Of a stretch of DNA of 26,928 nt, positions 2,350 to 26,928 are shown piece by piece (the stretch's first letter is position 1; every line of letters begins with the position of its first letter). This DNA is from a virus. The stretch spans positions 1 through 26,928 of IMG/VR virus record IMGVR_UViG_3300025872_000255, one strand, 5' to 3'. The position numbers were made by a program, and so were the translations under genes. Under the pieces are notes generated by a model. It did no database searches. It was not told the DNA's origin and was given only the letters and a program-made list of their open reading frames with translations.

Positions 2350-3849
2350 GTGATCGTCATTTTGACGGCCTCAGCCGACACTTACATAACAAACAAAATT
2401 GTCGACTCACTTGCTGCTGTTTCTGGAAATGTCGGACATGCAGGGACGATTGACATATTCAAGCTGTATGATGAAAGCTTTGAGGTAACTGGTGCAAACG
2501 AGTTGTCTCGTGCACTTCTACGTTTCGACTATGGCAGGCTGAGGTCACTTACTTCATCAATACTTGACCTAAACGACATGAGGGCAGTCCTCAAGTTGCG
2601 GCATATAAGCGCAGGACAACCTGTTCCAAGTGACTTTACGATATCGGTCTTTCCCATCACGGCAAACTTCAGTGAAGGTTTGGGCAGGAATATCTCTTCA
2701 TATTCTGACATCTCAGCAGCAAACTTTCTGTCAAGCTCTGCAAACGTATTGTGGAATACGCCAGGCGCTGATGCAAGTGGAACTCTTGGAGACACAGGCA
2801 TCGACTACATTGCAAGAGGTGACCTACTAGATGGCGCAGGAGTAAGGTCTCTAGAGTTCAAGCAGAACTTTCCGATCGGAAATGAAGACCTTGCAATCGA
2901 CGTGACTTCGTTCCTATCAGCGTCAATGGTCGGAATATTGCCACAACCTGCCATAAGATTGTCTCTTACAGGAAGTGAAGAGCAGGATGACATCACTAGG
3001 TTCGTAAAGAGATTCGCTTCAAGGCATGTCAAGGACCCAACACTCAGGCCAAGCATTGAAGTCTACTTTGATGATGCAGTACAGGATACTCGTCAGTCAA
3101 TGCTGTTCGATGTGACAGGAACTCTGTTCCTAACGAACAATGTTCGTGGTGTGAGAAAGAACATAGTCTCAGGAAGCTCGCTTACGCAGATAAGCGGTGA
3201 CAACTGCCTCATTGTAGATCTCATGACGGGCTCTTTCACAGCATCGTTTACGGGATCACAGTACTCAGCCGTAGAACCTTCTGTTGGAATGTACTATGTC
3301 AACTGTGTCATTCGATCAAATGATACGAGAATCGTCACAGGAACCACTGGTCTTTCAAGCTTTATAAGCGCATCAGGATCTGTCACATTCAACGAAAAAT
3401 GGAGATCGATTGACGGAAGCGTCGTTTACAAGGAATCAGAGCTTACCTTCAACAAGAACGATCCTGGTGGAAATGTCTATGCAACTGATGCCTTGATTGC
3501 ACACTGCAGTGGCCCACAAAACCTTCCAGGTGATCGAACGGCTGTGATTAGGGCAAAATTCTTTGACCTTGCTTCCGAAGATACAGTATCAAAGTTTGCA
3601 ATCGAGAAAAAGCCACTACAACTAACTTCTGTGCTGTACAGAGCGTTTGATGTGAACGACAAGAGCCTGATATTCGACTTCGATGCAATTGGGACTAAAG
3701 CTTCTTTAGATGAGAACGGAAACTTCTTCACAGTGTACAGCGACACCTTTCCTTACGGCAGGCCAGTAACATTTGAGTTTCTTGTCGAATACAATGGCAA
3801 ACAGACAATAGTAAGTTCGAACGGTTACACGTTCATGCACGGAGAGTGA
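2350..3849 (+). CDS. Virion protein with N-terminal DNRLRE (CBM96-like) domain
   Basis: This 499-aa protein has residues about 5-240 with the landmarks of the DNRLRE/CBM96 beta-sandwich family, named for bacterial carbohydrate-binding modules. It opens with TASADTYITNK, has the RALLRFDYGRL strand (about 53-63), AVLKLRH, then FSEGLG (107) and VLWNTPGA, which matches the family's WSE...TWNNxP region. A DLAIDVTSFL strand follows, and it ends with FASRHVKDPTLRPSIEVYF (about 222-240), the family's S-R-E...P-x-L closing strands. The C-terminal 260 residues are predicted beta-rich and unassigned; residues about 435-480 (DVNDKSLIFDFD, DENGNFFTVYSD) look like another beta module. It sits between the gp6-like and gp7-like wedge genes, so a baseplate-attached position is inferred. 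Glycan binding is suggested only by family, and the enzyme or ligand is unknown. GTG start with GGAG 6 nt upstream. Confidence 0.68.
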   Translation: MIVILTASADTYITNKIVDSLAAVSGNVGHAGTIDIFKLYDESFEVTGANELSRALLRFDYGRLRSLTSSILDLNDMRAVLKLRHISAGQPVPSDFTISVFPITANFSEGLGRNISSYSDISAANFLSSSANVLWNTPGADASGTLGDTGIDYIARGDLLDGAGVRSLEFKQNFPIGNEDLAIDVTSFLSASMVGILPQPAIRLSLTGSEEQDDITRFVKRFASRHVKDPTLRPSIEVYFDDAVQDTRQSMLFDVTGTLFLTNNVRGVRKNIVSGSSLTQISGDNCLIVDLMTGSFTASFTGSQYSAVEPSVGMYYVNCVIRSNDTRIVTGTTGLSSFISASGSVTFNEKWRSIDGSVVYKESELTFNKNDPGGNVYATDALIAHCSGPQNLPGDRTAVIRAKFFDLASEDTVSKFAIEKKPLQLTSVLYRAFDVNDKSLIFDFDAIGTKASLDENGNFFTVYSDTFPYGRPVTFEFLVEYNGKQTIVSSNGYTFMHGE

Positions 3850-6800
3850 TGTCAATAGCTAAGAATCGCTCGCTTGGAAACGCAATTGAGGCGGCGTCTC
3901 CATCTTTGCCCGTGTCATATCGCGGAATTGACTTCACAGACTCAAATGTCACGACAGGATCATTTAGGCACGACACACCAGGGGCACCGCTAAGATCGAC
4001 ACAACAGCTTCCCATAGATTGGTCGGATTTTTCACGACACACATTCTTTGGCTCTGCAGAAGTCGCAGTTAACGTTGCATTTGACAAGATCATCAACGGT
4101 TTTCCCTTTGACGGTAACAGTCAAGAGATTGGAAACTTCCTTGATGGGCTCTCTGGGTTTGAGAGGTATGTGTATGATTCGTTCCAGAAGAGCCTAAACT
4201 GCATCTTCATCACAGCAAGTCACATTGCTGTAAATGACGTGGCAGGCGGTACCGATACGGCACTCTCAAAGAGAAAGGATGGATCGAACGTTCTAGATCC
4301 TGGTCTGCAGTCTTTCTCACTACAGCTGAAGCTATTTGTTCCCTCCGATTCCAACACAGACTCTGTCATCGTCCAGCGTGCCTCAGGAACATCCGGTTAC
4401 ACACTAGCGTTAGAAGCAAATGCAACATCGGACACGGGTGTTGTCATGTTTATGGTGACATCCGGCAGCGCTGAAATCAGGACGAGCGCAAGTTTTGAGA
4501 AAGGCAAGTGGTTCGATCTGTGTGCGCAGACTGTGAGAAGGCCAAGTATAAACAAGCTTGCTGTAAGCATTGACGGGGTTCTTCGGTCGACTTCCTCCAC
4601 TGCGTATGAGCTTGAAGAATTCAGCACCAGAGGAACTTTACTCTTGATTGGAAGTGGCACATCACATGTTGGAACTGCCACAATATTCACACCAACATCA
4701 AACTTGTCAGCGTCAATTGACGACCTAAAGTTCTTCATTGGTAACAGGAGTCAGGAAGATATCCTACAGGTATCAAAGCGAGGAGTCTGGCCCCGAGATG
4801 ATCTGAAGCTCCTGTTCAGGTTCAACGAGCCCGCTGGTGATTATGCTCAGAAAGATCTGCTACTAGACTCAAGTGGAAATGGACTTCACTCAAGAGTGAC
4901 AAACTATTCCGATGCTGTGAGATCTTCACCTGACGGTCTTCCATTCTTCTACGAAAGACCTGAGTATAATCCCACACTCTTCCCCGATGCAGAAGAAATT
5001 GTTAATCTGAACTCCTCACTTCTGCTTTCAGCTTCACAGTACGATGAGAAAAATCCCAACCTCATCACGAGACTGATACCACCTCACTATTTGCAAGAAG
5101 GCCAGGTCTCCCAGGGCTTAGAAACGGAAGAAGGAAAGATAGTTGAAGCTTACCCTGAATCGGGTGATACACCAAGACAGGCAAAACTGGGCTCTGCGCA
5201 GATAATCTCAAGCATGCTTTACATTTGGGCCAAGCAGTTTGATGAGTACAAGCTTTTCCTTGATCAGTTCTCACTGCTAGACGACATCAATCCGGTGTCC
5301 ACCGGCTCAGTCGCAAACACATTCATACTGCGGCAGTCAAAGGAGTTTGGGTTTGAATTACCGAAGCTATTTGAGCAGAACGACCTGAAATCGTCAGAGT
5401 TCGGTGATGACATTGGAATTGATCCGTCTGCTGGAAACGTTCCTCTCTCCGAACTACAGTACCAGGCGTGGCGCAGAATAGTTTCGAACTTTCCTGATGT
5501 CATAAGCAGCAAGGGGACACTGTACTCAGTCAAAAGCCTGATTCGCTCATTCGGAGTTAATCCTGACACTGCCGTTCGAGTAAGAGAGTACGGTGGTTCA
5601 AGGAGTGGGTATATCGGCGGAAGGGTCCCAAGACGAGACTCGATAGGTGAGCTTGTTGTCACCGGGTCATGGAGAGCGACATCCCCATTTCTATCGGGAA
5701 CTCGAGTTGAACCTGGACTGCCAAGTCCCAAGGGAACTTTCATCAATGGCGTCTCAGATAGTCCAGATGACGGCTTGCTGACATCGGGATCGTGGTCTTG
5801 GGAAGGTTCTTTCACATACCCACTGACAAGGCAAAAGAACGGTTATGAATCTCTTGTGAGGATGTATTGCACAGGTTCATCAGGCCTGGGAATGCTTGCA
5901 AACTTGACCTTTGACACAAATGGTATCGTAGCGAGCAAAGTTGCCAACGTTAGGCTTCATGCTGCATACTCGACAGTCATACCAAACGGATTCGAGCTTC
6001 TGATTCCAACTGCATCTGTGCTCGATGGTGATAGGTGGAGTGTCTCCTTTGGAAGGGAGAAGCTGTCACCACAAATGTCAAGATGGTTCCTCAGGGCAGG
6101 AAAAGAGATCGCGGGTGAGGTTGCAGAGTCATACTCAACCGAGACCTATGTCACCTGCTCAGAACAGGATGACGCTTTCTCAAACAAGGGAAGCGTTTTC
6201 AATGCATCTGGAAGCTTCTTTGTCCTCGGAAATGAGCCCAACATTGTGACTGCGGGTCAGTTTGTGGAGTATGCATACCCATCATTTGTGACCGGTGCGT
6301 TCCTGGGCAATGTCTCAAGGGTAAGGTTCTATTCAAAGTTCAATGATGACGCTGAATGGCTGGAGCACATTAGAGACGTGACATCGACTGGTGTCAAAGA
6401 TCCACTGACTAACTTCAACTTTGTCACAACAGCGTCTGGCTCATACGAGAGGTTAAGACTCGACGTCCCATTTGACCAGGACATTACGGGATCGGATACG
6501 TCTGGTGAGATACAGTTCTTTGATTACTCACAGAACTCTTTGCACCTCACAGGTGTCAATTTCCCAGTATCAACAACAGTTCTTGGAAACACAGATGTTC
6601 TGTATTCTGGGCTTGACCCAAAGTTCGATGAGAGGTCAACCAACAACAAGGTAAGAGTCAGGTCTTGGCAGAGTTATGAGAACGCCGTTAAGTACGGTGG
6701 TGAAGTTGGTCACGCATATGAGGTGCCAAGGAATGAAGAAGGAGCAGATGATACTCGTTTCGGCATAGAGATAAGCGTAGTGCAGGGATTGAATGAGGAC

Positions 6801-7175
6801 ATCATGAGGATGTTTGCCGACCACAGTGCAATAGATGATGCCGTAGGAGAACCAAACGCCATCTTTGATGATTCTTACGCTCATCTCGACGACATTAGAG
6901 AGGTCTACTTCAATAGGTTGACGGGACCCACTGATTTTCATAATGTCTTCTTGTTCTCTAAGTGGTTCGAGGGAACGATTGGAAAATTAGTCGAACAGAT
7001 CATTCCGGCTAACACAAGATATTTTGGGACAAACTTCGTGATTGAAAGTCACGTTCTCGAGAGAAATAGGATGAGATACACGTGGGGAGACTTATACCTC
7101 GGTGAGAATGATAGGCTTGGACTTCGTGGGACAATTGGTCTAAGCCAACTTCTTGCGACAATGAGGAGGAGCTGA
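3849..7175 (+). CDS. Large baseplate wedge-type protein with LamG-like domains (gp7/tail protein I-like core)
   Basis: A protein of about 1108 aa. From the N-terminus: (i) residues 150-310, a concanavalin/LamG-like sandwich (FSLQLKLFVP, GKWFDLCAQ, LAVSIDGVLRS, ASIDDLKFFIG), followed by the LamG-style LLFRFNEPAGDY...DSSGNGLHS at 321-352; (ii) residues 450-585, a helical core (SSMLYIWAKQFDEYKLFLDQ, QYQAWRRIVSNFPDVISSKGT, KSLIRSFGVNP) resembling the KGT-containing region of P2 tail protein I; (iii) residues 645-880, a second LamG-like sandwich (DGDRWSVSFGRE, GNVSRVRFYSKFNDDAEWLEHIRD); (iv) a C-terminal block ending NFVIESHVLERNRMRY. Its size is close to T4 gp7 (1032 aa), and it follows gp25 and gp6 as gp7 does in T4. 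The gp7 assignment is inference. ATG 3849 (TGATG overlap, GGAG 3841-3844) is preferred to GTG 3846. Confidence 0.72.
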   Translation: MSIAKNRSLGNAIEAASPSLPVSYRGIDFTDSNVTTGSFRHDTPGAPLRSTQQLPIDWSDFSRHTFFGSAEVAVNVAFDKIINGFPFDGNSQEIGNFLDGLSGFERYVYDSFQKSLNCIFITASHIAVNDVAGGTDTALSKRKDGSNVLDPGLQSFSLQLKLFVPSDSNTDSVIVQRASGTSGYTLALEANATSDTGVVMFMVTSGSAEIRTSASFEKGKWFDLCAQTVRRPSINKLAVSIDGVLRSTSSTAYELEEFSTRGTLLLIGSGTSHVGTATIFTPTSNLSASIDDLKFFIGNRSQEDILQVSKRGVWPRDDLKLLFRFNEPAGDYAQKDLLLDSSGNGLHSRVTNYSDAVRSSPDGLPFFYERPEYNPTLFPDAEEIVNLNSSLLLSASQYDEKNPNLITRLIPPHYLQEGQVSQGLETEEGKIVEAYPESGDTPRQAKLGSAQIISSMLYIWAKQFDEYKLFLDQFSLLDDINPVSTGSVANTFILRQSKEFGFELPKLFEQNDLKSSEFGDDIGIDPSAGNVPLSELQYQAWRRIVSNFPDVISSKGTLYSVKSLIRSFGVNPDTAVRVREYGGSRSGYIGGRVPRRDSIGELVVTGSWRATSPFLSGTRVEPGLPSPKGTFINGVSDSPDDGLLTSGSWSWEGSFTYPLTRQKNGYESLVRMYCTGSSGLGMLANLTFDTNGIVASKVANVRLHAAYSTVIPNGFELLIPTASVLDGDRWSVSFGREKLSPQMSRWFLRAGKEIAGEVAESYSTETYVTCSEQDDAFSNKGSVFNASGSFFVLGNEPNIVTAGQFVEYAYPSFVTGAFLGNVSRVRFYSKFNDDAEWLEHIRDVTSTGVKDPLTNFNFVTTASGSYERLRLDVPFDQDITGSDTSGEIQFFDYSQNSLHLTGVNFPVSTTVLGNTDVLYSGLDPKFDERSTNNKVRVRSWQSYENAVKYGGEVGHAYEVPRNEEGADDTRFGIEISVVQGLNEDIMRMFADHSAIDDAVGEPNAIFDDSYAHLDDIREVYFNRLTGPTDFHNVFLFSKWFEGTIGKLVEQIIPANTRYFGTNFVIESHVLERNRMRYTWGDLYLGENDRLGLRGTIGLSQLLATMRRS
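7164..7169 (+). promoter_or_regulatory. Strong Shine-Dalgarno AGGAGG for the GTG start at 7176
   Basis: A perfect AGGAGG lies 6 nt upstream of GTG 7176 and inside the last codons of the preceding gene. It is the best ribosome binding site among the abutting genes and fixes the start of the 280-aa protein despite its GTG codon. Confidence 0.8.
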
Positions 7176-8018
7176 GTGGGAACGACCATAAGCGGAAGTA
7201 TTGAAGCGGCAAGCTCGCGACAGGGAGTTGAGATTAATGACTTCAGCCAAGTTTATGCTTCGATGCTTCCAAGGTTTCTATCGAATGCCGCACCCAGCAT
7301 CGTCGTCAATGGTAGGAAGTTACAAAGCGGAGATGCATTTGACGACAGCATATCAAGCGTACTTGCAGGCAACAAGGTATCGGTAGTTCCCAATCATCAT
7401 GCAGAGGACCGGGACATTGGCATGCCAAAGTCCCACTACAGTGACACGCCCTTTCATGAGATGGGACGCCTTGAGCCCGTTGCATACATACAGTCAGAAG
7501 ACCTGCATGCCCTCTATCCGGTTATTCTGGATGAGGTCTCACCAATAGACCCAGGCCTTCTCAACGGAATCATTGAGCCACTACCGATCAGGCAGGCGGC
7601 CTCCAGGACAGCCCTTGAGAATGTAAGACTGTCAAAAGGGGTTACCAGTGACATCACGAGTCATCACATCGATGTGTTTGGTTACTCCATTCCAATAGAG
7701 CAGAAAGTGTACGACGTTGCAACGCAGAACAGCACGAGACCATACCAGGAATACGGTGTTGAATCCCTTATTCAGGAAAAAGCAATGTCTTACTTTGCCG
7801 ACGACCCAATCACATCATCACCATACTACGAAGACAAGTCAAAAGAATCAAGAAGTCTCTACAAGGTTGATGACGAGATGCTTTCAGTGATTGAGGCTAT
7901 GGGTACGCAGTTGAGAACATTCGGTATTGATTACCGTTCTGCAGCCGCAGGATATACTTTCATAGATGGCATTAATGGGACAGATTCCATAGTGTTCATG
8001 GACAGAAAAGGACGTTGA
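7176..8018 (+). CDS. Virion-region protein of unknown function (280 aa)
   Basis: I do not recognise this 280-aa protein. It is soluble-looking, with no signal peptide or membrane segment. Residues 10-45 look helical (IEAASSRQGVEINDFSQVYA), followed by mixed sequence with many Asp, Tyr and His residues (NHHAEDRDIGMPKSHYSDTP near 73-92; TSHHIDVFGYSIP near 160-172). The C-terminus (about 225-280) has DDEMLSVIEAMGTQLRTFGI and ends in a basic tail. It directly abuts the gp7-like gene (stop 7173-7175, start 7176) and lies 3 nt before the 1194-aa LamG protein. A baseplate or tail accessory role is therefore inferred from position only. The GTG start is fixed by the AGGAGG at 7164-7169. Confidence 0.6.
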   Translation: MGTTISGSIEAASSRQGVEINDFSQVYASMLPRFLSNAAPSIVVNGRKLQSGDAFDDSISSVLAGNKVSVVPNHHAEDRDIGMPKSHYSDTPFHEMGRLEPVAYIQSEDLHALYPVILDEVSPIDPGLLNGIIEPLPIRQAASRTALENVRLSKGVTSDITSHHIDVFGYSIPIEQKVYDVATQNSTRPYQEYGVESLIQEKAMSYFADDPITSSPYYEDKSKESRSLYKVDDEMLSVIEAMGTQLRTFGIDYRSAAAGYTFIDGINGTDSIVFMDRKGR

Positions 8019-8021
8019 TAA

Positions 8022-11000
8022 ATGTCGAAGTTTGGTGATGCCAAGAGTCCTCTTGACCCAAGATTCCCATTCTCGGTTGAACCAGGCGGTAGCGTCATCA
8101 ACCTCGCAAATAAGCTTAGCTCCCTGCTTGTTTATGACCCAGCCTCAGGAATCATCAAAAACCTAGTCGGCGGCCAGCTCATGCAAGGCGTCGGAACCCT
8201 AGACATCAGTAGGTTCCCGATCGCAGAACTCTTTGGTGCCCCATACGCATGGAGGACATCAAAGGTCACAACCGGACCGAACACTATCTACGGGCACTTT
8301 GTCGGATCAGGTGCAAGTTCTATAAACCACTTCTCGACAGGCATGACCCTGTCTTTCTGGTTTAGGAATAACAACGCACCAATCGGTGCCCCACCGACGG
8401 GCAATCTCCAAAGGACCAATAAGGTCATAGTCGTATCAGGCAACTCACTGTTGAACTTCAATGTTGAGCCTCAGAGAACTAAGTTCGCAGTGTATAACGT
8501 GACATCTCCTGATGGGCTTGGTGAGGAACTTGCATTTGGGTTCAACAACAATACGAGCGGCGGCACTCCACTCGTTCACACTCTAACAACGAGAGATTCA
8601 AGGGACTATCTCAACAATCCTCACACATTTGAAAGCTTTGGGTGGGGATCTGTCGCATTAAACCCAATGCAGAAGCCGATCACCCTTGGGTTTCAAAAGT
8701 GGCACCACGTTGTGATTGCAATGTCGGCTGGCGATTCATTTACGACAAACGGAAGGCAGATAAGAGAGAGGACGAACCAAGGGTACTCAGCCGTCTATGT
8801 CAACGGAGTTCTTGTGAATCGTTACATCGGCGGAATGGAACCCGGTGTCTTCATCAAGGGCTATGGCACGTACCCCTTTGAAAGTCTATCTCCTGATGGT
8901 TTCGTTACCGGCAGAAAGTCAGACCCACTAGACAAACTATGGTTTGCTTACGACTCTGCAACAAACAACAGGCACTACACGCAGTTTTGCACATGGGACA
9001 GGGTGCTAAGCACCGAAGAAGTTGAGGCCCTGTACTTTGGAACCAGGCAGGGCGTTCATACACAGGGCATTACCAACGTAAGCCAACCGCCAAGAAAACA
9101 GCGTAACCTGCCATCAAGGGTCACCAAGACCGTCAACATCGGATTTGATGACTCACCTGGGCCGAGAGGAAACACTGCGTATGATGACTCAAGGTCACTC
9201 ATCGGAGACGTCAGCGTTACCCTTGGTTCAAACAATCTCACACCAGGCAACTATGGCATAAGCTATAATGCAAATCTCGACACCGACCTCAAGGGTGTCA
9301 TTCCTGCAAAGCTTGCAATGGAGAGCGTTGGAAGCCTTCCAAGTGAGTTCACACTGTCACCCTTCAGTGAGAATCTTAGCCGTGAAAATCTTGTCACGCA
9401 CGATGGGACCGAGGGCACAGCTCTCATAAGAATCCCGATAAACTCAGTCACTTCCTCGAGAAACCTACAGATCGCAGGCAGGACTGATTCTGCAATGGCC
9501 AAGAGAATCAGCATCACAACATACGGGTCCTTGTTCCTCAGTTCAGCCTTCAGGGACAACCCAGGCGCTTACATTGATGTCACGACTCCAGGCAAGCCTT
9601 ATGCTGGTATAGCAGGCACGGGATTCCTCTACTACTCACCACAATATTCAACTTGGTTGGAGAAGAGGTCGACAGGCAACTGGGCTTTTAAGCTCTTTAG
9701 TGAGAAGACAGCCTCAGAGAGAAACGATGCAGTTAATTCGATAGAAGTTAACGCAAGGACCTTGCCGAATCCGGGTCTGGCAGACGTACTGAGGTCTGGT
9801 TATGGTTTTGCATCTGGTGCACTTGCGATTAGTTATGCAGGTGACGTTCTTGTCTCTTCATCGATAGCCTCAGACTACTTTGTGACAGGTGTCAATGAGA
9901 CACTAGCTCAGTTCAGCGCCTCTCCTCAAATGGGCTATTTCTTACCGTTCAAGGAAAGCCTTGAGCATTTAGGGTATCACTCAATCGGAACACCTACCGT
10001 CACTTTTGGTGCTCCATTTGCTCCAAAGTATCATGCATACGACCATGAGACTATCAAACTGAACAAGTACATAGACAAGCCCTTTAGGTTGAAGAAGGTC
10101 ATACTACGTGTGCCTGTCAAAGTTGTCAGGAAAAATGAGATCACAGGATCGACAACATCGGAATCGTTCACAGGCGAGTGGGCGAATAATGTTCCTGCAA
10201 GGAAAGACATGGACAATTACGTCTTCTTCCTATACAGACAGCGACGTTCTTCCTATGAGACTGACAGTGTTAACGACGTCTCCGCATCTGTAAGGTTCTT
10301 GATCGCATCTTCAAGTGTTTGTGTCTATAACTCTCCGTCATTTGGAAGGGCATTTGAGGATGGATTTTCAGACATCTTCGGCCAGAATACTCCCATATCT
10401 GCTTCAACAGGGTATAGCACGGTTGATGAGCAGCTGAACTCTCTGTACTCGAAGATGAACAATCTTCTCATTGACCCGTTGCTATCACAAAGTCTTACAA
10501 GATGGGATTCACCACTTCATGGACCAAGTGTTGCGATAGATGCCCAACTTGACAATTTCGGGTTAGGCACACATACTTTCGAAAAAAGTTTCTATCTAGA
10601 AGCGGAGATGACGCCTGCTGTAGTTCTGGGTGGCAATCCTCCTGCAACATTGACGTACTTGACTAGCTCCACTACGGCTTATTCTACTTCATTCTTCTCT
10701 GTTGACAAGTACACAGGTCCCCTTGGTGGAGGATCTCCTACTGCTGATGAGCTGGTTGATCCTGCTAATTGGGCACAGCAGGGATACAACAGGCTGTTCA
10801 ATAGATACCCGTACACAGGAAGCTACTTGAACCTTAACGCCAGTAACACGGCGCCGCCCATAACTTCAATCATCCAGAATCAGTGGGTTGGTGGTACAAG
10901 GCAACCAAAGCTCAACAACTCTGCAAGAGGAAGTGTCACGGCATCGAATCAGTACGATGCTAAACTGATAGCGCAGCCTTACTTCTCTTTCATTCAAGGT

Positions 11001-11606
11001 GAACCTTATACATTGACACAGCGAGAAACCTACTTTAATGAGGAAGTTTCTCTAAACTTAGGCCCTTGGGGAACTTTTAGAATATACAAGGCGCCTGAGT
11101 TTGATGATCCCTGCTTTGACATTGAACTTGGAAGAACAGGCATGTCTGTGGGTGACTATGCAGACAATATCTTTAAGAAACCCTTCCCATTAACTGTAGA
11201 TGGAAGGTCAGTGCCAGGTGCAACGGCCAATAGGGCAAGAGGTCCACTACCAGGAGTTTTCCAAAGAACCAATCTCATAAGGTTCATGAGCTCATCTGCT
11301 GAGAACCTTGATACCACGGTAGCTGGATCACCTGTCTTTCTTACTGCAAGCCAGTCAAGCATTGGAACCATGTCTGGTTCTAACATGGCCGACCTTGTTT
11401 CATCGATGACAGTTGGGTTCTTTACTGCAAGTCCCAACACCAACAAGCAGATAGTCCGGGACTACATACTTTTGCCAAGTGATGAGCTCATCCTTGGGCT
11501 TGATGCAGGAATTACACCTCCACCTGATGTGACACCCACGTATGATGACCCACACCCAGATGCATTGGGTGGGATAGATCCGATACTGGAGATTACTGTA
11601 CCATGA
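8022..11606 (+). CDS. Large virion structural protein with LamG/concanavalin-like domain
   Basis: This 1194-aa protein carries a LamG-type (concanavalin A-like) sandwich at residues about 100-345. The opening strand is FSTGMTLSFWFRNN, the central strand is FQKWHHVVIAM, then YSAVYVNGVLVNRYIGG, and the end is TQFCTWDRVLSTEEVEALYFG, the usual W-D-R-x-L-S-x-E-E-V closing motif of LamG-3-like domains. Downstream is a long beta-rich region. It includes a module near 675-770 (LNKYIDKPFRLKKVILRVPV, then DNYVFFLYRQRRSS) and a C-terminal segment with DYILLPSDELILGLDAG followed by a Pro/Asp-rich tail. No catalytic motif is evident. It may be a baseplate, tail-surface or fibre-like protein; sugar binding is a family-level inference. 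AAGGA at 8008-8012 lies 9 nt before the ATG. The 3' end overlaps the next gene by 4 nt. Confidence 0.78.
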   Translation: MSKFGDAKSPLDPRFPFSVEPGGSVINLANKLSSLLVYDPASGIIKNLVGGQLMQGVGTLDISRFPIAELFGAPYAWRTSKVTTGPNTIYGHFVGSGASSINHFSTGMTLSFWFRNNNAPIGAPPTGNLQRTNKVIVVSGNSLLNFNVEPQRTKFAVYNVTSPDGLGEELAFGFNNNTSGGTPLVHTLTTRDSRDYLNNPHTFESFGWGSVALNPMQKPITLGFQKWHHVVIAMSAGDSFTTNGRQIRERTNQGYSAVYVNGVLVNRYIGGMEPGVFIKGYGTYPFESLSPDGFVTGRKSDPLDKLWFAYDSATNNRHYTQFCTWDRVLSTEEVEALYFGTRQGVHTQGITNVSQPPRKQRNLPSRVTKTVNIGFDDSPGPRGNTAYDDSRSLIGDVSVTLGSNNLTPGNYGISYNANLDTDLKGVIPAKLAMESVGSLPSEFTLSPFSENLSRENLVTHDGTEGTALIRIPINSVTSSRNLQIAGRTDSAMAKRISITTYGSLFLSSAFRDNPGAYIDVTTPGKPYAGIAGTGFLYYSPQYSTWLEKRSTGNWAFKLFSEKTASERNDAVNSIEVNARTLPNPGLADVLRSGYGFASGALAISYAGDVLVSSSIASDYFVTGVNETLAQFSASPQMGYFLPFKESLEHLGYHSIGTPTVTFGAPFAPKYHAYDHETIKLNKYIDKPFRLKKVILRVPVKVVRKNEITGSTTSESFTGEWANNVPARKDMDNYVFFLYRQRRSSYETDSVNDVSASVRFLIASSSVCVYNSPSFGRAFEDGFSDIFGQNTPISASTGYSTVDEQLNSLYSKMNNLLIDPLLSQSLTRWDSPLHGPSVAIDAQLDNFGLGTHTFEKSFYLEAEMTPAVVLGGNPPATLTYLTSSTTAYSTSFFSVDKYTGPLGGGSPTADELVDPANWAQQGYNRLFNRYPYTGSYLNLNASNTAPPITSIIQNQWVGGTRQPKLNNSARGSVTASNQYDAKLIAQPYFSFIQGEPYTLTQRETYFNEEVSLNLGPWGTFRIYKAPEFDDPCFDIELGRTGMSVGDYADNIFKKPFPLTVDGRSVPGATANRARGPLPGVFQRTNLIRFMSSSAENLDTTVAGSPVFLTASQSSIGTMSGSNMADLVSSMTVGFFTASPNTNKQIVRDYILLPSDELILGLDAGITPPPDVTPTYDDPHPDALGGIDPILEITVP

Positions 11607-16888: not shown

Positions 16889-16889
16889 G

Positions 16890-19800: not shown

Positions 19801-21242
19801 TCATGCCATCTGTCACAGGAACAAGCATTACATCTGCTGGAAGGTCTGACTTTGATGTTTCAATTGACTATGACAGGAGTGCAATGCTTCGACTCTGGAA
19901 CTCTATGAACGGAGTTGCAGAGCACAAAGGGAAGATATCTGAACTTCCACAGAAGGTAACTGACAGTCCTGAATTTTCGCTTCTAATCAACTGTATGCGA
20001 TATGCGAACAAGGTCACTGAGACCCTAAAGATTCGTTATGCTGTAATGCAGAACTTTGTGAGCACTTACTCAACGTCAACATCGACCCTAGTTTCAACTA
20101 TGAAAGATCCTTCGCTTCTTGAGCTTGTCACTAAGCTTAGAAAGTCAGGACAAGAATCTATACTGCAAGAAATCACTCAAGAAACCGTTAGCTACGCACA
20201 GCTGAGCCTTGCCATGATTAGGGGTCCACTGTCACTTGACAGAACTTCAAGGATGACAAGAATTGCAAAGAACATCACATCACTTCTGCATCGCAACTTT
20301 AGTGTGCAGGAAAGTTCTGACTCCCTTGTTGCGTGCGTTGGATTGCCAGCAAAAACCATTGAGTTTCTAAGAAGAAGCCAACCGTCAGCGGGTATCAAGA
20401 CGGGACTCAGCGAGTACATTGAGATTACTTTCTCGAAACAGGATATCCAGTTTCCCGATCTTGTGTTGAGAAACACGGTGTTCAGGTTTTGTCCTCGCCT
20501 TGAAGTCGTTCCAAACTTTACGAGTTATACGAATATCAGGGACGCAATGAGAGACTTCTTGTACCTTTGTCACGATGGAAGCGGTTGGGTAACAAAGGAT
20601 GTTAACGAAGCAATCACATTCGTGAGTGAAGTAACGGGCCTTGAGAGGATCTCAGCATATGTCATTGTCGTTAACCACGCAATAGATGCAATATGCAGGA
20701 TTGCAAGTTACGCAAGTGGAACTGCGGGCCTCTATGAGATGTCAAACCCACAGGGTTCCAGTGTCATGTCAACGGCAGGTGCAGAGCTTGCTCTAGAAGA
20801 AATGAGAAACAATTCTGTCATGAAAGTTGCAATGGGTAATCTTCTGCCAGGCAACTTCATGCAGCAAGTCCCGGGCGGCTATAGGTTCATGAGATTTTCT
20901 GAGCTTGATGGTCGAGCGGCAGTTGCAACGGATCAGTCGAGGCATCGATTGTTAGGCAGTATCCTTTCTGATCCGATCTTCACATACGAGAATGGGTATA
21001 CTGTTTCTAGATGTTTCACACCCTTTGAAAGGGTCTACAATTGTGTAATTGATCCTGACGAATTCATGATAGACAAGTCCCGAACACAGTCCACGGTTAG
21101 TGGAAGAACTGCATATGACAAAGTCGTAGCCGACGGCTTAGTTGACGTTTATAGCGATGTTGCAGTATTCAGGGACACTTCATCAAACTCTTTGTTTGAC
21201 GGCTCGGCATATGCAGTAAAAGTGGAGCTCATAACAGAATGA
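16890..21242 (+). CDS. Giant virion structural protein with two Ser/Thr-rich linkers (1450 aa)
   Basis: The largest gene in the window and not recognisable by family. Residues 1-485 are mostly helical and Ala/Leu/Ser-rich (for example QLLAAISVIDPSTPEGFLEA and IAEALAYELSISAG). Residues about 490-630 are a low-complexity Ser/Thr/Lys run. A short ordered island follows (about 630-700; SSFEITGEELIVSQQSSVKN, SKDLLRRFLMGDNIDVIS). A second Ser/Thr/Pro-rich linker runs from about 713 to 820. The C-terminal 620 residues look alpha-helical with a conserved-looking FTPFERVYNCVIDPDEF near 1375. No signal peptide, hydrophobic segment or metal motif. The size and modular design suggest a long virion component. 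A tape measure is possible but is not supported by long heptad coiled coils. ATG 16890 has AAGGTG 4 nt upstream; the 3' end overlaps the next gene by 4 nt. Confidence 0.72.
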   Translation: MPIKSAFRRSILNSQPIPPAPLRQTPTSMTDSVALSDSLIATFDGGFATAITRQDSVTSDSADAIPLVRGIKDSNLATSVSSDPERPELLSLTGHFKEPVESIDEILALRDFEASIDEADLSLFYEKMLVGQQAQKISKRADAANAARSETEGNVLSLSRMTNAIDTFRDSCGFISNQDRIHKGSKKFLEALPLVYGENPTDQNLTIQRTLTGLSDITTSCNTSLVTLLAYSLLYPGSVKFEKPEVGDKKLQAFAVPVVTSDPVNQLLAAISVIDPSTPEGFLEAESLLPQDPTARIALIAEALAYELSISAGMSRLEIASLATYIKETVGSTTSAINGQPPAGTLLSAFRDGQNLPLEINDTSINGSDYKGILTAYVDGPVGSGSLDFTALENAVKAVTQSLGKLLEDTGKIRCLDEASESLTAANIIAEMAAAVCEGTSTLGLSVDTARSSLQIAQLLLFKEIATTASTGAILEARFRTFSSLITTSSETVQTETSASASSDTKTASTSKSESSKTSNQQSSKSLKVTVDGAVTNVKVEDTTESKVQAMSPGRVAPSTLSSLTTSGSKLSSSRSAGIGNARGTSSGKSAGTAEQTASKNQTSSKTSSGSSSGTSTVESVQENSDLESLIYKTFTGKGGSGHITANYNSSFEITGEELIVSQQSSVKNDEFTRAGLTFSSMGILGSKDLLRRFLMGDNIDVISVVSQAANTVTSPTPPPTAKEAPASSNRTKKSPHGILSMLEKYTSSGKTTATGLPGVSSPISKRSSPTSGIKSRTSKWQSNANSVTYAASTASPRLENILGIRSNSTNLTPAKESSNVPKKYAVGKITIKEDDNDVIEIVGNVSKQAAQTFRGRDLVARQAVPSEQAANVSPEYTAFLELFPALSQSESQTSFKFAMQSLRDSLKNESDAGQSLLSGEFRKVVDTIFSNTSNIAGKPGLVDSSTLNYSLSRQTIEFLCFSMFSSMCSFMPSVTGTSITSAGRSDFDVSIDYDRSAMLRLWNSMNGVAEHKGKISELPQKVTDSPEFSLLINCMRYANKVTETLKIRYAVMQNFVSTYSTSTSTLVSTMKDPSLLELVTKLRKSGQESILQEITQETVSYAQLSLAMIRGPLSLDRTSRMTRIAKNITSLLHRNFSVQESSDSLVACVGLPAKTIEFLRRSQPSAGIKTGLSEYIEITFSKQDIQFPDLVLRNTVFRFCPRLEVVPNFTSYTNIRDAMRDFLYLCHDGSGWVTKDVNEAITFVSEVTGLERISAYVIVVNHAIDAICRIASYASGTAGLYEMSNPQGSSVMSTAGAELALEEMRNNSVMKVAMGNLLPGNFMQQVPGGYRFMRFSELDGRAAVATDQSRHRLLGSILSDPIFTYENGYTVSRCFTPFERVYNCVIDPDEFMIDKSRTQSTVSGRTAYDKVVADGLVDVYSDVAVFRDTSSNSLFDGSAYAVKVELITE

Positions 21243-22960
21243 AGGCGTCAACATTCACATCAAACGTTCTCTCAAGGATATCGCTTGAAAAACCAGTGAT
21301 AACTGAGGGTAAGTTCACGTATGGCTACTTCACTCCGGACGAAGCTGTGACGGAGGGACCTGTGCCGGGTACACAGCTGACGAGAGAAAACTCAAGAACT
21401 CAACTACTGCTGTCACCCAGGCGGAACACAATTGCGATCATGCCTACGAGTTCAAAACGAACATCGTTAAGCAGTGAAAAAGCTGTTTCTCTAGTAAAAG
21501 AGAACATCAACAAGCTGTACTCTTCTGAGGACATTGGGAATACTGGCGCTACTACAATTGCGTCCCAAGACACGAATGTCCTTGACAGGGCATATCAGCT
21601 GATACTCAGAGCCGCTGAGTCGCGTGAGATAGAGGGAAACTTTACCGACATAGCGGCAGACCTCGGCTTATCACTACCAGACAGTGTTGACAAATCGCTC
21701 CTACAGGAACTTGGAGTCAGATATGCAAGCGCTGGCGCCCAATTCGCAGTAGATAGAAACAGGATAGAGTCAGGAAAGTTCGGTCAAGCAAGAAGCTTTA
21801 CAAGCACGACTGTTGTCGCAGACAAGTTTGCCCTTGACATCGTTTTGAATACTCCACAAGCTTCACCAGGTGCAAGTGAGGCACTGCAGGAGGTCAGAAA
21901 TGATGTAGCGGCAGTGCAGTCTATTGCAAGGCAAGAGAACCAGCAGATAAGCTCAAATGATTACATCACGGTTGTAGATCCCGTAAGTGTCAAAGCAGGA
22001 AGTGCAAAAACTTTCGACTATGACATAAGTGCCCTGGCAAACGTAGTCTATCGTAAGGAGCACAGGGCGAATGGGATTACAAGCACAAAGTTGCTGTCTG
22101 TCATACCTGTTGACTCTCAAAACTTCACTGACTTTCAGGTAATGTATGGAACTCAGTATCACTACTGGATCCACACAGTGTACGTGATGAGAACCTCTGC
22201 CATCACTGCAAATACAGGTCAAGTCGTGACAGTCGACATTCTACTGCAGTCAGAGCCAAGTAACACAATCTCAATTCATTCTTCTGAGACAGTCCCGCCA
22301 CCTCCACCGGCGGATATTGCAATAAGATGGGACTATTATGAGAGAAAACCTGTCGTCACATGGTCATTTCCACCAAACCCACAGCGCGACATAAAGTACT
22401 TTCAAGTATTCAAAAGGGCTAGTGTTAATGAGCCATTTGAGCTACAGGTCGAGTACGACTTTAATGACAGCCTTGTGAAACCCAAGCGCTACGAATCGAT
22501 TGAGCCGACAAATACGAAACCAGTTGACACACCTGTGCTATCTTTTGTTGATGCTAACTTCAAGAAGGAAAGCACTGCAATATACGCTGTTGCATGTGTA
22601 GATGCGAGAGGACTTGTATCGAACTACTCGGCCCAAATTGAGGCTTCCTTTGACAAGATCAGGAATAGACTGTCAACAAAGTATGTGTCACCTGGCAATG
22701 CACCAAGGCCTTACCCAAACGTCTTCTTGCGTGGTGATCTCTTTCTTGATTCAATCGTGACTAAGAACAAAAGAAGAATCAAGGCTTACTTTGATCCTGA
22801 GTACCTGAAGCTTGTTGACAGGTTTGGCAATGACATGAAACTATTCGGAACTGTCGATGATGGAACCAGTTACAAGATCTCTGTCATTGATACTGATCGT
22901 GCTGAGGACCTTGTGGTCGATATGAGCATCACGGATTTACTTCGCACGAAAGCTGATTGA
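21239..22960 (+). CDS. Virion protein with C-terminal fibronectin-III-like domain (573 aa)
   Basis: This 573-aa protein has an N-terminal 330 residues of mixed, partly helical sequence (SSEKAVSLVKENINKLYSSE; ASEALQEVRNDVAAVQSIAR). A polyproline hinge follows (VPPPPPADI, about 352-360) and then a fibronectin-III-like domain (about 355-475) with PVVTWSFPPNPQRDIKYFQV and, further on, STAIYAVACVDARGLVSNYS, the Y-x-V-x-A-x-D-x-x-G-x-x-S signature of an FN3 F-G region. The last 100 residues form an additional beta-rich cap (PYPNVFLRGDLFLDS). Its FN3 module resembles the C-terminal one in the 774-aa protein two genes upstream. ATG 21239 lies in an ATGA overlap with the 1450-aa gene. It ends at 22960, where the tightly overlapped gene run breaks. 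Role inferred as a tail-surface or baseplate structural protein. Confidence 0.68.
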   Translation: MKASTFTSNVLSRISLEKPVITEGKFTYGYFTPDEAVTEGPVPGTQLTRENSRTQLLLSPRRNTIAIMPTSSKRTSLSSEKAVSLVKENINKLYSSEDIGNTGATTIASQDTNVLDRAYQLILRAAESREIEGNFTDIAADLGLSLPDSVDKSLLQELGVRYASAGAQFAVDRNRIESGKFGQARSFTSTTVVADKFALDIVLNTPQASPGASEALQEVRNDVAAVQSIARQENQQISSNDYITVVDPVSVKAGSAKTFDYDISALANVVYRKEHRANGITSTKLLSVIPVDSQNFTDFQVMYGTQYHYWIHTVYVMRTSAITANTGQVVTVDILLQSEPSNTISIHSSETVPPPPPADIAIRWDYYERKPVVTWSFPPNPQRDIKYFQVFKRASVNEPFELQVEYDFNDSLVKPKRYESIEPTNTKPVDTPVLSFVDANFKKESTAIYAVACVDARGLVSNYSAQIEASFDKIRNRLSTKYVSPGNAPRPYPNVFLRGDLFLDSIVTKNKRRIKAYFDPEYLKLVDRFGNDMKLFGTVDDGTSYKISVIDTDRAEDLVVDMSITDLLRTKAD

Positions 22961-22987: not shown

Positions 22988-23698
22988 ATGGGTTTTCTTG
23001 ACCATTCAACTTCTAACATTATCGTCGACGCAGTTCTAACTGACATCGGCAGACAGTTCCTCGCAAGGAATGACGGCAGTTTCTCAATCGTCAAGTTTGC
23101 TCTTGCAGACGATGAGATAGACTACACGATGATTCAAAAGTACGGTAGAATCGTCGGTAAGGAAAAGATCGAGAAGAACACACCGATCTTTGAAGCACAG
23201 ACGATCGCAGGTCTTGCACTAAAGTATCGCTGCGTGTCAATCTCCAATCCGAACCTTACCAAGATGTCAAGCATGACAATTACAGGTGAGGGACTTGATT
23301 CAAGTGGCACGACCCTGTCTATGACTGCGAGCTCCACGACTTCTTCAAGACTTCTGACATTCACGCAATCCGTGGTTGGCGAGAACCTTGTAGATGTTGA
23401 GCTTCGTGACCAGCAGTTCCTTGTCAAGGTTCCAAACAACTTTGTACAGATTGCAGGTGCAGCTCCGGACTATGTCGATGTCGACAACGTCGCATACTAC
23501 ACACTTCTTAGAAGTCCAACGACAACAGCCGCAGGTGGATCGGTGCTATCCTTCACGCTTGTTCTCAAGTCGATTACGGACACACAGTTCAGCGTCTTTG
23601 GCACGTCATCTGACAAGACTATCATCAAGGCGGTAGCTTCGGTCACAGGCATGCAATCAGGCGCAGTGAAGGACTTCAACATCACAATCTCCAAGTGA
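22988..23698 (+). CDS. Virion structural protein with LD-x-DA-T-x-GRQ N-terminus, strongly biased codons (236 aa)
   Basis: This 236-aa protein begins GFLDHSTSNIIVDAVLTDIG, then RQFLARNDGSFSIVKFALAD and DEIDYT. It shares this N-terminal module with the 298-aa protein at 13671. The remainder (about 75-236) is beta-rich with many Thr and Ser, including GKEKIEKNTPIFEAQTIAGL and a C-terminal AVKDFNITISK. I know such openings from large-phage structural proteins; no function is established that I can name. All 13 lysines are encoded by AAG and none by AAA, unlike the genes upstream (15:15 in the ASH protein). This suggests high expression and therefore many copies per virion. It has its own ribosome binding site and is not overlapped by its neighbour. 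A tube-like, sheath-associated or decoration role is possible but unproven. Confidence 0.7.
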   Translation: MGFLDHSTSNIIVDAVLTDIGRQFLARNDGSFSIVKFALADDEIDYTMIQKYGRIVGKEKIEKNTPIFEAQTIAGLALKYRCVSISNPNLTKMSSMTITGEGLDSSGTTLSMTASSTTSSRLLTFTQSVVGENLVDVELRDQQFLVKVPNNFVQIAGAAPDYVDVDNVAYYTLLRSPTTTAAGGSVLSFTLVLKSITDTQFSVFGTSSDKTIIKAVASVTGMQSGAVKDFNITISK

Positions 23699-23705
23699 GA
23701 GGAAA

Positions 23706-24977
23706 ATGGCTACTTTCAAGGAAATAACTGCGGCCGACATACAGACAACACGTACGGCCCTTAACCAGCTTATTGATGTCGTCCAGAACGACATATCTGG
23801 CTCCGCCTCTCGCAGGGGATATGCAGTATTTGTGACGTCCTCAACCGGAATCACGACTCTTTACTCTGTAACATCTTCGCTATTCCAGACTGTCTACGAT
23901 CAAGATTACACACTGCAGACCGCAAACGCAATATTCGACATGACTGTTGGATTGTATGCGTCAGGTGGAACGGTGACGTCAGCCTCTGCAGGTGTGGATA
24001 CTTCTGGGAAGTTGTTGTTCAGCTCCAACTCTCTCATGATGAGGGAGAAGGTTGACATGTATCGTTTGCATGCAGGAAAACTTCTTGGCGACTCAGACTC
24101 ATCCTTCTTTGCGCCTTTCGACTCAACAAGCGTAAGTGACAGAATTGATGAGGCGATCTTCCTTGACTTCAAACGTCTCTTTACACGTGACAGAATCAAG
24201 CGTGAGACGTTTGCAATGCGTTTCTACACAAGCGGTGTTCTCGACGGATCGCAGAAGGTCACGCCGTTTGAAGCTTCAATAACCAACGGTTTCACAGGAT
24301 CAAACCTAACTAAGACGTCTGTCTCAGGGTCTGCTATCTTTACTGACGTCGGTGCAGCCGTGAACAGGCGCGCAACTTTCGGTGGAGACGTAGGTGACAT
24401 CGTCAACTCCGCAGATTCTACTAACAAGGTTGGCCTCCTCTTCTATGAGGCAGGGATAGCTGTTCTCGATGCGAAGAAGGTGATGTGGGGGCAGCAACAT
24501 GTGTCTGGTGTAATCTCGGCGGTGACAAGCAGCATCTTTGGTGATGCGCAGGTGAACTCTACAGTCATCGGTTCAAACTTCAACCAGTGCAATGTTAGTG
24601 CATCATTCATTCCTGACTTCTTCGTTTCTGCTTCGATCGATGACATTGTTGACCACATAGCCTCAGCAAGATTCCAATCAGGCTCATTCACAGCAGTCAC
24701 ATTCCAGAACCAGACGAACATAAACTCTACACTTCTCTTCTGTAGGGCGTCGGCAGATGAGTTCAACTACTCAACAAACCCAACTTTCACGGATGAGGGT
24801 GGCAACATCACGGTCATTGAAAGCGGTCAGGAAGACTCACAGAGGACATTCACATTCCCAACGACGGTCGGACTGTACGATGCAAACAACAACCTTCTTG
24901 CGGTTGCAAAGTTCTCAAGACCCATCGAAAAGAGTGACGAGAGGGACCTCACGGTACGGGTCAGGCTGGACTTCTAA
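23706..24977 (+). CDS. Conserved-looking phage structural protein (423 aa), biased codons
   Basis: This 423-aa protein starts with a helical region (FKEITAADIQTTRTALNQLI) and then LYSVTSSLFQTVYDQDYTLQ with TANAIFDMTVGLY. The C-terminus is distinctive: RASADEFNYSTNPTFTDEGG, then QRTFTFPTTVGLYDANNNLL and AVAKFSRPIEKSDERDLTVR ending VRLDF. I recall this C-terminal pattern from structural proteins of large marine phages, without an assigned role. The middle is Ser/Thr/Val-rich. Lysine is AAG 11 times and AAA twice, continuing the codon skew of the preceding gene, so it is probably abundant. A purine-rich GAGAGGA (23697-23703) precedes the ATG by 2 nt, and the previous stop is 7 nt away. Capsid, neck or tail-surface assignment cannot be made from sequence alone. 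Confidence 0.72.
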   Translation: MATFKEITAADIQTTRTALNQLIDVVQNDISGSASRRGYAVFVTSSTGITTLYSVTSSLFQTVYDQDYTLQTANAIFDMTVGLYASGGTVTSASAGVDTSGKLLFSSNSLMMREKVDMYRLHAGKLLGDSDSSFFAPFDSTSVSDRIDEAIFLDFKRLFTRDRIKRETFAMRFYTSGVLDGSQKVTPFEASITNGFTGSNLTKTSVSGSAIFTDVGAAVNRRATFGGDVGDIVNSADSTNKVGLLFYEAGIAVLDAKKVMWGQQHVSGVISAVTSSIFGDAQVNSTVIGSNFNQCNVSASFIPDFFVSASIDDIVDHIASARFQSGSFTAVTFQNQTNINSTLLFCRASADEFNYSTNPTFTDEGGNITVIESGQEDSQRTFTFPTTVGLYDANNNLLAVAKFSRPIEKSDERDLTVRVRLDF

Positions 24978-24990
24978 TGCCACGGCCTTT

Positions 24991-24995
24991 GGAGG
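24991..24995 (+). promoter_or_regulatory. Shine-Dalgarno GGAGG for the final LamG gene
   Basis: GGAGG lies 7 nt upstream of ATG 25003 within the 25-nt gap after the 423-aa gene. It is an ideal ribosome binding site and fixes the start of a gene that otherwise has no stop in the window. Confidence 0.75.
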
Positions 24996-25002
24996 CTGAC
25001 CC

Positions 25003-26928
25003 ATGTCGTTTGTAAGACTTCCCGAGGGCGCCCTTGACACGTTTGGTGTTATTGCAAGGCCACATCGAACATACACGTCTTCTTCTTCTGGAATCACGGG
25101 TAGCGTAAAAGTTTACCAACGATCATCAGAAAACGAGAAGGAGAGGACTGTATTCGAAGACAAGTTCGGAGATGACAGTCCTGATGGTAAGCTAAAGGAC
25201 TTTAGGAATAGTCCAAGCCTCACAACTGCTGAAGAGTACCTCAACTCTGTGAACCTGAGCCGTGTGTCAGGTAGGCATACAAAATCAGTTGGGGTCATTA
25301 GGTTTGAACCATCATTCGAGTTCACCAGTGACACTCTGAGGAAAGGTGTAATCAGGAATGTATTATACCCCTTCTACGCATCCTCATATCCCCAGTTGAA
25401 CTGGGGATTCACGAATTACCTGAGTCTTCACTTCCCAAATAGTGTGGGCCCAAGCTCAGCATCGCTTGTTTACCCATCGTCAGGAGCTTTTGGGTACGTT
25501 CCATCGAGTTCATTCACGATCGAGACTTACTACAAACCTTCTTACACTGCAGCCACCCACAGGCCAGGCACGATCCTTCACGCTTCCTCATCTTTTGCGC
25601 TGTCAATAGTCTCAGGATCGAAGAAGGATCCGTTTGGCAATGTAGCTTCATACAGGGCAATGCTACAGCTCAGTCACAGTGCTGACATTCCGCCCAGTGA
25701 AGTCGACATTACCTTGCCGAACAATGGCAGGTCATTCCCTGGAGATCTCATCTTTCTTTCCGATGAGAACATACGATTCAATGAGTGGTCTCATATCGCA
25801 GTCAGGTGGGGTCCAAACAACAATGGTTCGACTGGCTCCTTCTACATTGATGGTGTCAAGTCCGGTGAGTTCTACATCCCATCAGGCTCAGTTACCTCTG
25901 GAAGTATTGCAAATGAAGCAGTGTTCATTGGCAACTTCTTTGAGGGACCTCTCACGCTTCTCAATAGGCCTTCGGGTTTCTTTAACCAGGATGCCGTAGT
26001 CAATGAAGGCGTGACTGACCTATTCAACGCGACACCGACGTATCCAGAACAGCCTACAACTTTTGATTTGCGGCATCCTCTTGTAGGTGAGATACATGAA
26101 ACAAAGATCTGGGACAGGTTCCTTGGTATTGCTGAGATTCTGACAAGCTCACTTCAAGGAACGACTGTCGATGAGAACCTTCTCTTTTACTTGCCTCCCT
26201 TCTTCGTCAAAGAGTCCCCTTCAAGGAAGGTCTTGCAAACTCCGTTCCAAGACACGCACACAACCACAGACGATCCAATAAACGTTGCAATGAGCTTTGG
26301 AGTAGGTGGGCACCTCATAAACCTTGAGAATCATGTCAGGGAGATGGTAAAGGGTGTCTATCCAAGACTGCTTTTCCTAACGTCAAGCACATATGACCTT
26401 GCTTCAACCTCAAACGCCGAAGCTAACGTCTACATTTACGGCAATGGCCAGATGCAAAGAAGGAACCTCACCATCTTGCCGTGTGACAATGGCAAGATGG
26501 AGCCCAACTTTGGGTTCCTCATATCAGGAAGTGACTACGGTTCAAGCGGATCCGTGACTGACAAGTTTGTCACTGACCTGGGAAGTTTTGACGCTTCGTT
26601 TGTTAACGTGAGCAACCTCGTCCCATCATCTTCCCTATTCCCGGGCCTCGTTCAAGAAAGTGATATCATTGATGAGATTGTAGGTGCAAGCCCTGAAAAT
26701 CCCGGCGTTGCGCCAGGATCGGTGTTAACCATCTTTCAGAGGACAAGGGACGGAAGCTCTAATGCCGTCTCGGTCTTTGACAGTTCAAATCTCATGTACG
26801 GCGGAAGAATACACCCAGGTTCTTTTGTGCTGACTGACAATGACTTCTCAGGAAGCGATGGGACAATGACGATTCGTCTTCGTGATAATGGCTTTGGTGG
26901 CCTGTATCGTGCTGATGCTTCGTCATCC
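25003..26928 (+). CDS. Virion structural protein with LamG/concanavalin-like domain (5' 642 codons, runs off window)
   Basis: The reading frame is open from ATG 25003 to the last base, 642 codons without a stop. The protein begins MSFVRLPEGALDTFGVIARP. Residues about 168-375 form a LamG-type sandwich: SSSFTIETYYKP, GTILHASSSFALSI, NEWSHIAVRWGPNNNGSTGS then FYIDGVKSGEF, EAVFIGNFFEG, and GEIHETKIWDRFLGIAEI. This has the usual W-x-H-I-A-V-x-W, Y-I-D-G and closing I-W-D-R-x-L landmarks. The C-terminal part seen (about 430-642) is beta-rich and ends with NLMYGGRIHPGSFVLTDNDF and TIRLRDNGFGGLYRA, a motif I recall from structural proteins of large phages. Lysine codons are AAG 12, AAA 5, less skewed than in the two genes before it. 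Probably a tail, baseplate or fibre component; glycan binding is family-level inference. Confidence 0.78.
   Translation, partial: MSFVRLPEGALDTFGVIARPHRTYTSSSSGITGSVKVYQRSSENEKERTVFEDKFGDDSPDGKLKDFRNSPSLTTAEEYLNSVNLSRVSGRHTKSVGVIRFEPSFEFTSDTLRKGVIRNVLYPFYASSYPQLNWGFTNYLSLHFPNSVGPSSASLVYPSSGAFGYVPSSSFTIETYYKPSYTAATHRPGTILHASSSFALSIVSGSKKDPFGNVASYRAMLQLSHSADIPPSEVDITLPNNGRSFPGDLIFLSDENIRFNEWSHIAVRWGPNNNGSTGSFYIDGVKSGEFYIPSGSVTSGSIANEAVFIGNFFEGPLTLLNRPSGFFNQDAVVNEGVTDLFNATPTYPEQPTTFDLRHPLVGEIHETKIWDRFLGIAEILTSSLQGTTVDENLLFYLPPFFVKESPSRKVLQTPFQDTHTTTDDPINVAMSFGVGGHLINLENHVREMVKGVYPRLLFLTSSTYDLASTSNAEANVYIYGNGQMQRRNLTILPCDNGKMEPNFGFLISGSDYGSSGSVTDKFVTDLGSFDASFVNVSNLVPSSSLFPGLVQESDIIDEIVGASPENPGVAPGSVLTIFQRTRDGSSNAVSVFDSSNLMYGGRIHPGSFVLTDNDFSGSDGTMTIRLRDNGFGGLYRADASSS
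25388..25408. repeat. Perfect inverted repeat, 10-bp arms, inside the LamG gene
   Basis: The arm ATCCCCAGTT (25388-25397) and its exact reverse complement AACTGGGGAT (25399-25408) are separated by a single G. As RNA, a 9-bp stem with a TGA triloop is possible. It lies fully within codons for YPQLNWGF. Whether it has a role is unknown. Confidence 0.8.
26471..26500. repeat. Perfect inverted repeat, 10-bp arms with 10-nt spacer, inside the LamG gene
   Basis: CCATCTTGCC (26471-26480) is followed by a 10-nt spacer and GGCAAGATGG (26491-26500), its exact reverse complement. A G-U and a U-A pair could extend the RNA stem to 12 bp with a 6-nt loop. It lies within codons for TILPCDNGKM. No poly-T tract follows, so it does not look like an intrinsic terminator. 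Confidence 0.8.

Follow-up and report, generated by a model that had tools for sequence, protein, structure and literature searches.

Gene order and the wedge block

The window analysed here is a 26,928-base stretch of viral DNA (record IMGVR_UViG_3300025872_000255), a genome fragment that carries 15 densely packed genes, g01–g15, all on the plus strand and joined by overlaps or gaps of a few bases, the last of them being cut by the contig end. An initial annotation had read the stretch as a tail or baseplate operon with an unusually elaborate surface, and had suggested that its many lectin-type and spacer domains could form a general adhesion system which replaces classical tail fibres or adds to them. 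That observation is confirmed in part, and its interpretation is partly supported: the co-linearity of the genes with gp25 and gp6, the sheath genes of relatives and the conservation of LamG and DNRLRE domains speak for an elaborate baseplate surface in which carbohydrate-binding folds abound.

The nearest relative, IMG/VR contig 3300032092_000076 (G001, 41 kb), is collinear with the entire window. Since glycosyltransferases, an exonuclease and a UDP-glucose dehydrogenase lie 5′ of gp25 in one relative, and RuvC, primase and SbcC lie 3′ of g15 in G001, the block forms a self-contained module. A sheath gene was present in all six relatives searched, the window fragment being without one, and the known relatives are phages with contractile tails. 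The two that have been cultured, Microcystis phage Mel-JY01 and Flavobacterium phage immuto, have most of these genes without a name. Most window proteins, when searched alone against Pfam and PHROGs, gave no match; orthologs were therefore used, and the genes of all fetched loci were scanned with a profile for each of the 15 proteins. The orders gp25–gp6–g03–g04 and g09–g12–g13–g14–g15 proved to be repeated in relatives. For Mel-JY01, immuto and LR756508 (484 kb), the only families matched were gp25, gp6, g03, g04, g13 and g14, besides cross-matches of g09 on the g13-like gene. The domains recur at orthologous positions in proteins with 33–55% identity, so that the domain patterns are not due to chance.

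The first two genes are g01 (38–517), which encodes a gp25/gpW-like baseplate wedge protein (Pfam GPW_gp25, 2.3e-5; phrog_43, 9.7e-6), and g02 (514–2346), which encodes a gp6/gpJ-like wedge protein (phrog_219, 4.5e-10; Baseplate_J, 2.8e-4) with 99 relatives in IMG/VR. The gp25 and gp6 assignments of the initial annotation were thus borne out, as weak Pfam and PHROG matches, and the two wedge genes stand side by side as expected of a contractile-tail baseplate operon.

Directly after gp6 lies g03 (2350–3849), a conserved neighbour of the wedge genes that combines a DNRLRE/CBM96-fold domain (about residues 1–243; 2350–3078) with a C-terminal beta domain. The window protein itself gave no DNRLRE match above threshold with either Pfam or the NCBIfam model NF033679. 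The one DNRLRE-like domain that had been read by eye was nevertheless recovered, both through the orthologs, 24 of 32 of which match NF033679 (best 2.1e-8), and through the fold of an AlphaFold model (predicted local distance difference test, pLDDT, 82.7). With Foldseek, the best PDB match of this model is 7vbo, an alginate-binding DNRLRE structure of the CBM96 type (E 1.9e-5; template modelling score, TM, 0.60 by target), whose authors equate the CBM96 domain with the DNRLRE domain (PMC9971899). The likeness is at fold level, and g03 differs from CBM96 in being a phage protein with no enzyme attached. Full-length fold matches were found among predicted viral proteins (A0A516M7I3, TM 0.75). 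A DNRLRE protein stands directly 3′ of gp6 in 11 of the 15 relatives searched, Mel-JY01 (6.4e-9) and immuto (7.2e-5) included. The T4 proteins gp8, gp9, gp10, gp11 and gp53 were considered as counterparts of g03, g13 and g14, and the comparison gave no support.

The next gene, g04 (3846–7175), would encode a gpI-like wedge protein to which LamG domains have been added. Here again the window protein had no Pfam LamG match, and the domain was seen in 21 of 25 orthologs (best 7e-19). The AlphaFold model is moderately reliable (mean pLDDT 67.8): LamG domain 1 (residues 155–325; 4308–4820), with pLDDT near 90, is followed by a helical part and then by a second LamG-like beta-sandwich (residues 645–845; 5778–6380). 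Laminin G and pentraxin folds match the model, laminin LG4-5 pairs align over both sandwiches (about 740 columns), and the second sandwich aligns with the first (hhalign, E 1.8e-4). Accordingly, g04 contains at least one LamG domain and probably two, the second being predicted from the fold model. Botulinum neurotoxin binding domains also appeared in the fold search and were set aside, as they share the jelly-roll fold only.

The helical core of g04 (residues 430–620; 5133–5705) contains an invariant GT pair and aligns with P2 gpI at the KGT motif of the latter. With a seven-sequence gpI profile, hhalign gave E 2.7e-4 at a probability of 42%, the controls g03, g12, g13 and g14 scoring at least 0.27. 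Pfam Tail_P2_I was matched by only 3 of 25 orthologs, at 0.08 or weaker, and a comparison with a single T4 gp7 sequence showed no likeness (hhalign, E at least 0.12). In phage P2 (W-J-I-H), as in the window, gp25-like, gp6-like and gpI-like genes (W, J, I) follow each other and lead on to adhesion genes, which in the window are predicted ones. The window departs from P2 in the additional DNRLRE protein between J and I, and in the length of g04, which is about six times that of gpI, with LamG added. Because of the core alignment and of this gene order (gp25, gp6, g03, g04), g04 is a probable gpI-type wedge protein.

The variable cassette

Between g04 and g09 the gene content changes from one relative to the other. 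The g04-to-g09 span measures about 3.1 kb in two loci (L043, L061) and 4.1 kb in L006; it reaches 6.5 kb in the window, and among the jumbo relatives 16.8 kb in G006 and 20.6 kb in G004 and G005. In the window it is occupied by g05 (7176–8018), g06 (8022–11606), g07 (11603–12802) and g08 (12802–13671). The products of g06 and g08 are the N- and C-terminal halves of what is one polypeptide in most other relatives; in L058 they are encoded by two adjacent genes, and in L006 and L008 a single polypeptide comprises g05, g08 and the greater part of g06. In the window and in G001, the gene with ASH repeats, g07, is placed between the two halves. The LamG motif of g06 (about 8199–9056) was read by eye; in orthologs, Pfam detects LamG at the corresponding N-terminal position (G007, 4.3e-16; G004 and G005, about 2e-5), and a phmmer search with residues 50–350 of g06 found no match in PDB. 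The initial annotation had treated all of the domains alike, which the data do not bear out: judged from gene content, g05–g08 form a variable cassette set apart from the constant structural g03 and g04.

In g07, PF22544 (ASH/HYDIN) was matched above the Pfam cut-off (1.9e-9) over two stretches, and there is a further match to DUF1573. The three ASH-like repeats proposed from the letters are plausible. When the window is compared with G001, every gene but g07 shows 94–98% nucleotide identity, the value for g07 being 72%. Synonymous difference (pS) amounts to 0.60 in g07 against 0.05–0.21 in the other genes, and replacement difference (pN) to 0.18, the other genes staying at about 0.02 or below. 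The divergent tract begins about 60 bases into the gene (near 11663) and ends with it. Since synonymous and replacement differences are both high, the tract is a divergent allele that was brought in, and not the outcome of fast point mutation. No relative of g07 was found in 50,697 phage records, none by profile search in the other fetched relatives, and in IMG/VR, at the sensitivity used, G001 was the sole match.

Genes for ASH-domain proteins of 552 and 541 residues also occur outside the baseplate module in jumbo relatives, on the minus strand of G005 (248.5–249.1 kb) and G006 (211.2–211.9 kb). The start of the G005 product resembles a lipoprotein signal (LSISC), and this protein may be a lipoprotein displayed on infected cells.

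In G004, G005 and G006 the cassette holds three large extra proteins (2349, 699 and 690 residues in G004 and G005) and a smaller one, between the g06/g08 protein and g09. Those of G005 that were examined contain repeats of the kind GTGLTGGGTSGDVTL, on which Pfam is nearly silent, and by eye they may be taken as tail-fibre-like. Elsewhere in G005, at 77.4–81.8 kb, a further fibre-like protein of 1463 residues is encoded. Some other features of these large genomes may be recorded here. In G005, two neighbouring open reading frames of about 630 residues begin identically, and two sheath-family reading frames of more than 1000 residues also lie side by side (176269–180147 and 184003–190232; L106, L107), and two sheath matches were likewise found in LR756508. 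Reading frames at 254.8 and 281.0 kb of G005 resemble GroEL and DnaK by their N-termini; carriage of DnaK/DnaJ has been reported in moraphages (PMC12619734).

The peripheral block and cultured relatives

The block that follows the cassette starts with g09 (13671–14567), a paralog of g13 with a shared N-terminal motif according to profile cross-matches. It continues with g10 (14564–16888), with a possible FN3 domain at its C-terminus; g11 (16890–21242), a large protein with a low-complexity linker at a conserved position; and g12 (21239–22960), with FN3-like domains, one at about 22256–22678. The claim of at least three FN3-like domains finds weak backing. None of 44 g12 or 31 g10 orthologs has a Pfam FN3 match; the 44-sequence profile of g12 has a weak match to titin FN3 (7.5e-4 over the full sequence, 0.069 for the top-scoring domain), and the C-terminus of g10 aligns with the first g12 domain (hhalign, E 2e-4). 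A scan of IMG/VR with g12 alone matched only G001.

The last three genes are g13 (22988–23698), a conserved small protein of the module with profile matches in 95 loci and in immuto, Mel-JY01 and LR756508; the strongly conserved g14 (23706–24977), relatives of which are encoded in 386 IMG/VR stretches; and g15 (25003–26928), truncated here and 764 residues long in G001. The LamG domain of g15 (about 25501–25896) is the one that exceeds the Pfam cut-off in the window protein itself (PF13385, 5.2e-7). The original count of at least four LamG domains in three proteins is therefore plausible as a whole, the domain of g15 being certain, those of g04 and g06 resting on orthologs and the second of g04 on the fold model. 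Profile searches of PDB with g13 and g14 gave no useful match, Pfam detected no tail-collar family in 42 g09, g13, g14 and g15 proteins, and the C-terminus of g14 matches P2 gpH weakly (E 5e-4, probability 32%, 22 columns).

A C-terminal domain of about 95 residues, ending in LLAVAK.SRP..K, is common to g14 and g15 (window 23706–26928), to five consecutive Mel-JY01 proteins, to two of immuto and to one of Rhodothermus phage RM378 (116279–116515); it may serve docking or assembly in all of them. In G010 (L185/L096) an extra reading frame of 300 residues separates g14 from g15, and is missing from a relative that is 96% identical (L178). A search of GTDB genomes for a host gave a single match, a Planctomycetaceae metagenome-assembled genome contig (L208, 1–1117), where a g14 fragment is in frame with a bacterial protein; as this is probably an assembly chimera, no host is claimed.

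The baseplate region of Mel-JY01 (PP395634) resembles the window in having gp25, gp6, the DNRLRE protein, a large gpI-like protein and a g13-like protein, after which come the five proteins that share the g14-type C-terminal domain; the last of these (WWT39517) carries LamG. It is unlike the window in that profiles detect no equivalents of g05–g12, its gp6 is only 33% identical and most of its genes were deposited as hypothetical. vB_FspM_immuto (NC_055915) has the same core order: its gp6 is followed by the DNRLRE protein, and it has a pair of g14-type proteins; LamG is found elsewhere in its genome. It differs in that its g14-like genes are directly followed by genes annotated as tail fibre and spike, and no cassette like g05–g08 was found in it.

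Proposed constant and exchangeable contacts with the host

The reading that we favour, with a probability of roughly 0.58, takes the window for the baseplate operon of a large, uncultivated myophage from an aquatic habitat, in which constant glycan-contact domains of low specificity are combined with a swappable specificity cassette. gp25, gp6, g03 with its DNRLRE/CBM96 fold and the gpI-like g04 with LamG would form a constant wedge, and g09–g15, ending in another LamG protein, a mostly constant peripheral block; between the two, at g05–g08, host-contact parts would be exchanged. The LamG and DNRLRE domains of wedge and rim would make weak and broad contact with anionic polysaccharide or exopolysaccharide. 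Specificity would be set by the cassette, here by the ASH-repeat protein g07 together with the g06/g08 protein, and firm binding would then open the wedge ring and trigger contraction of the sheath. As far as the sequence comparisons go, g07 is the best candidate for the part that chooses the host.

Several points weigh against this reading. Some domains of the window proteins are visible through orthologs only, and the gpI match of g04 is modest. The pN/pS ratio of g07 (0.30) gives no sign of positive selection, and its allele swap comes from one genome pair; in the close pair L178/L185 the most divergent gene is g15 (pS 0.35, pN 0.11). Moreover, ASH domains are often spacers, and g07 could be a scaffold instead of an adhesin.

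The main rival explanation, which we consider unlikely, is that the beta-sandwich domains are mainly architectural and build a large rim that holds fibres encoded elsewhere, glycans being left unbound and recognition falling to fibre genes outside the contig. The clade-wide conservation of the DNRLRE and LamG domains of g03 and g04, which for DNRLRE extends across the Microcystis and Flavobacterium phages, is what structure rather than specificity predicts, and the large fibre-like proteins in the cassette of jumbo relatives and elsewhere in G005 fit as well. On the other hand, DNRLRE and LamG are typical carbohydrate-binding folds, and g07 and g15 are strongly divergent between close relatives. 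A less probable proposal still is that g07 plays no part in host specificity and is either a neutral recombinant tract or a decoration whose exchange has other causes. The rise of pS along with pN, the restriction of the swap to one pair and the lack of g07 homologs in other relatives agree with it; it sits less well with a tract whose limits are nearly those of the gene, at a position already variable in gene content among relatives.

That the lectin domains act in place of tail fibres, as first suggested, is very improbable. In favour of it, no S74 chaperone was found in six relatives, and neither the window nor the stretch directly 3′ of g15 in G001 has a fibre-like gene. Against it, the window is a fragment, and the fibre-like proteins of G004–G006, together with the annotated fibre and spike genes of immuto, indicate that lectin domains coexist with fibre-like proteins. 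Since g03 and the LamG-bearing g04 are constant wedge parts in distant relatives, an addition to fibres fits better than a replacement.

LamG, Ig-like and CBM domains are generally known from phage tail proteins. Phage adhesins with Ig-like domains that bind epithelium are reported in a recent study (PMC13370021); these, too, are accessory beta-sandwich adhesion modules on virions, and the window differs from them in that LamG and DNRLRE folds reside within baseplate-operon proteins of environmental phages. By gene content, the present group is also like the moraphages, large aquatic phages whose core set includes gp25, gp6, sheath and glycosyltransferase genes (PMC12619734). No description of a fixed DNRLRE protein between gp6 and gpI, or of an allele-swapped ASH gene that splits a tail protein, was found in the open-access subset of papers, and no priority is claimed.

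It is tempting, though tentative, to extend the favoured reading to a widespread and nearly uncultured clade of large phages. Its members may possess an obligatory wedge layer of carbohydrate-binding folds, with CBM96/DNRLRE between gp6 and gpI and LamG on gpI, and may alter their specificity by inserted or swapped cassette genes, such as an ASH gene that divides a tail protein between two coupled genes. Relatives of the g03-type DNRLRE protein that follows gp6 were found in only 6 of 50,697 phage records, against the 386 IMG/VR stretches with a g14 relative; this type of baseplate is thus met far more often in metagenomes than among cultured phages. Should the favoured reading be true, the combination of a constant glycan-contact layer with a short swappable gene would offer a concrete route by which the choice of host could be predicted, and the prediction tested, for phages known from metagenomes only.

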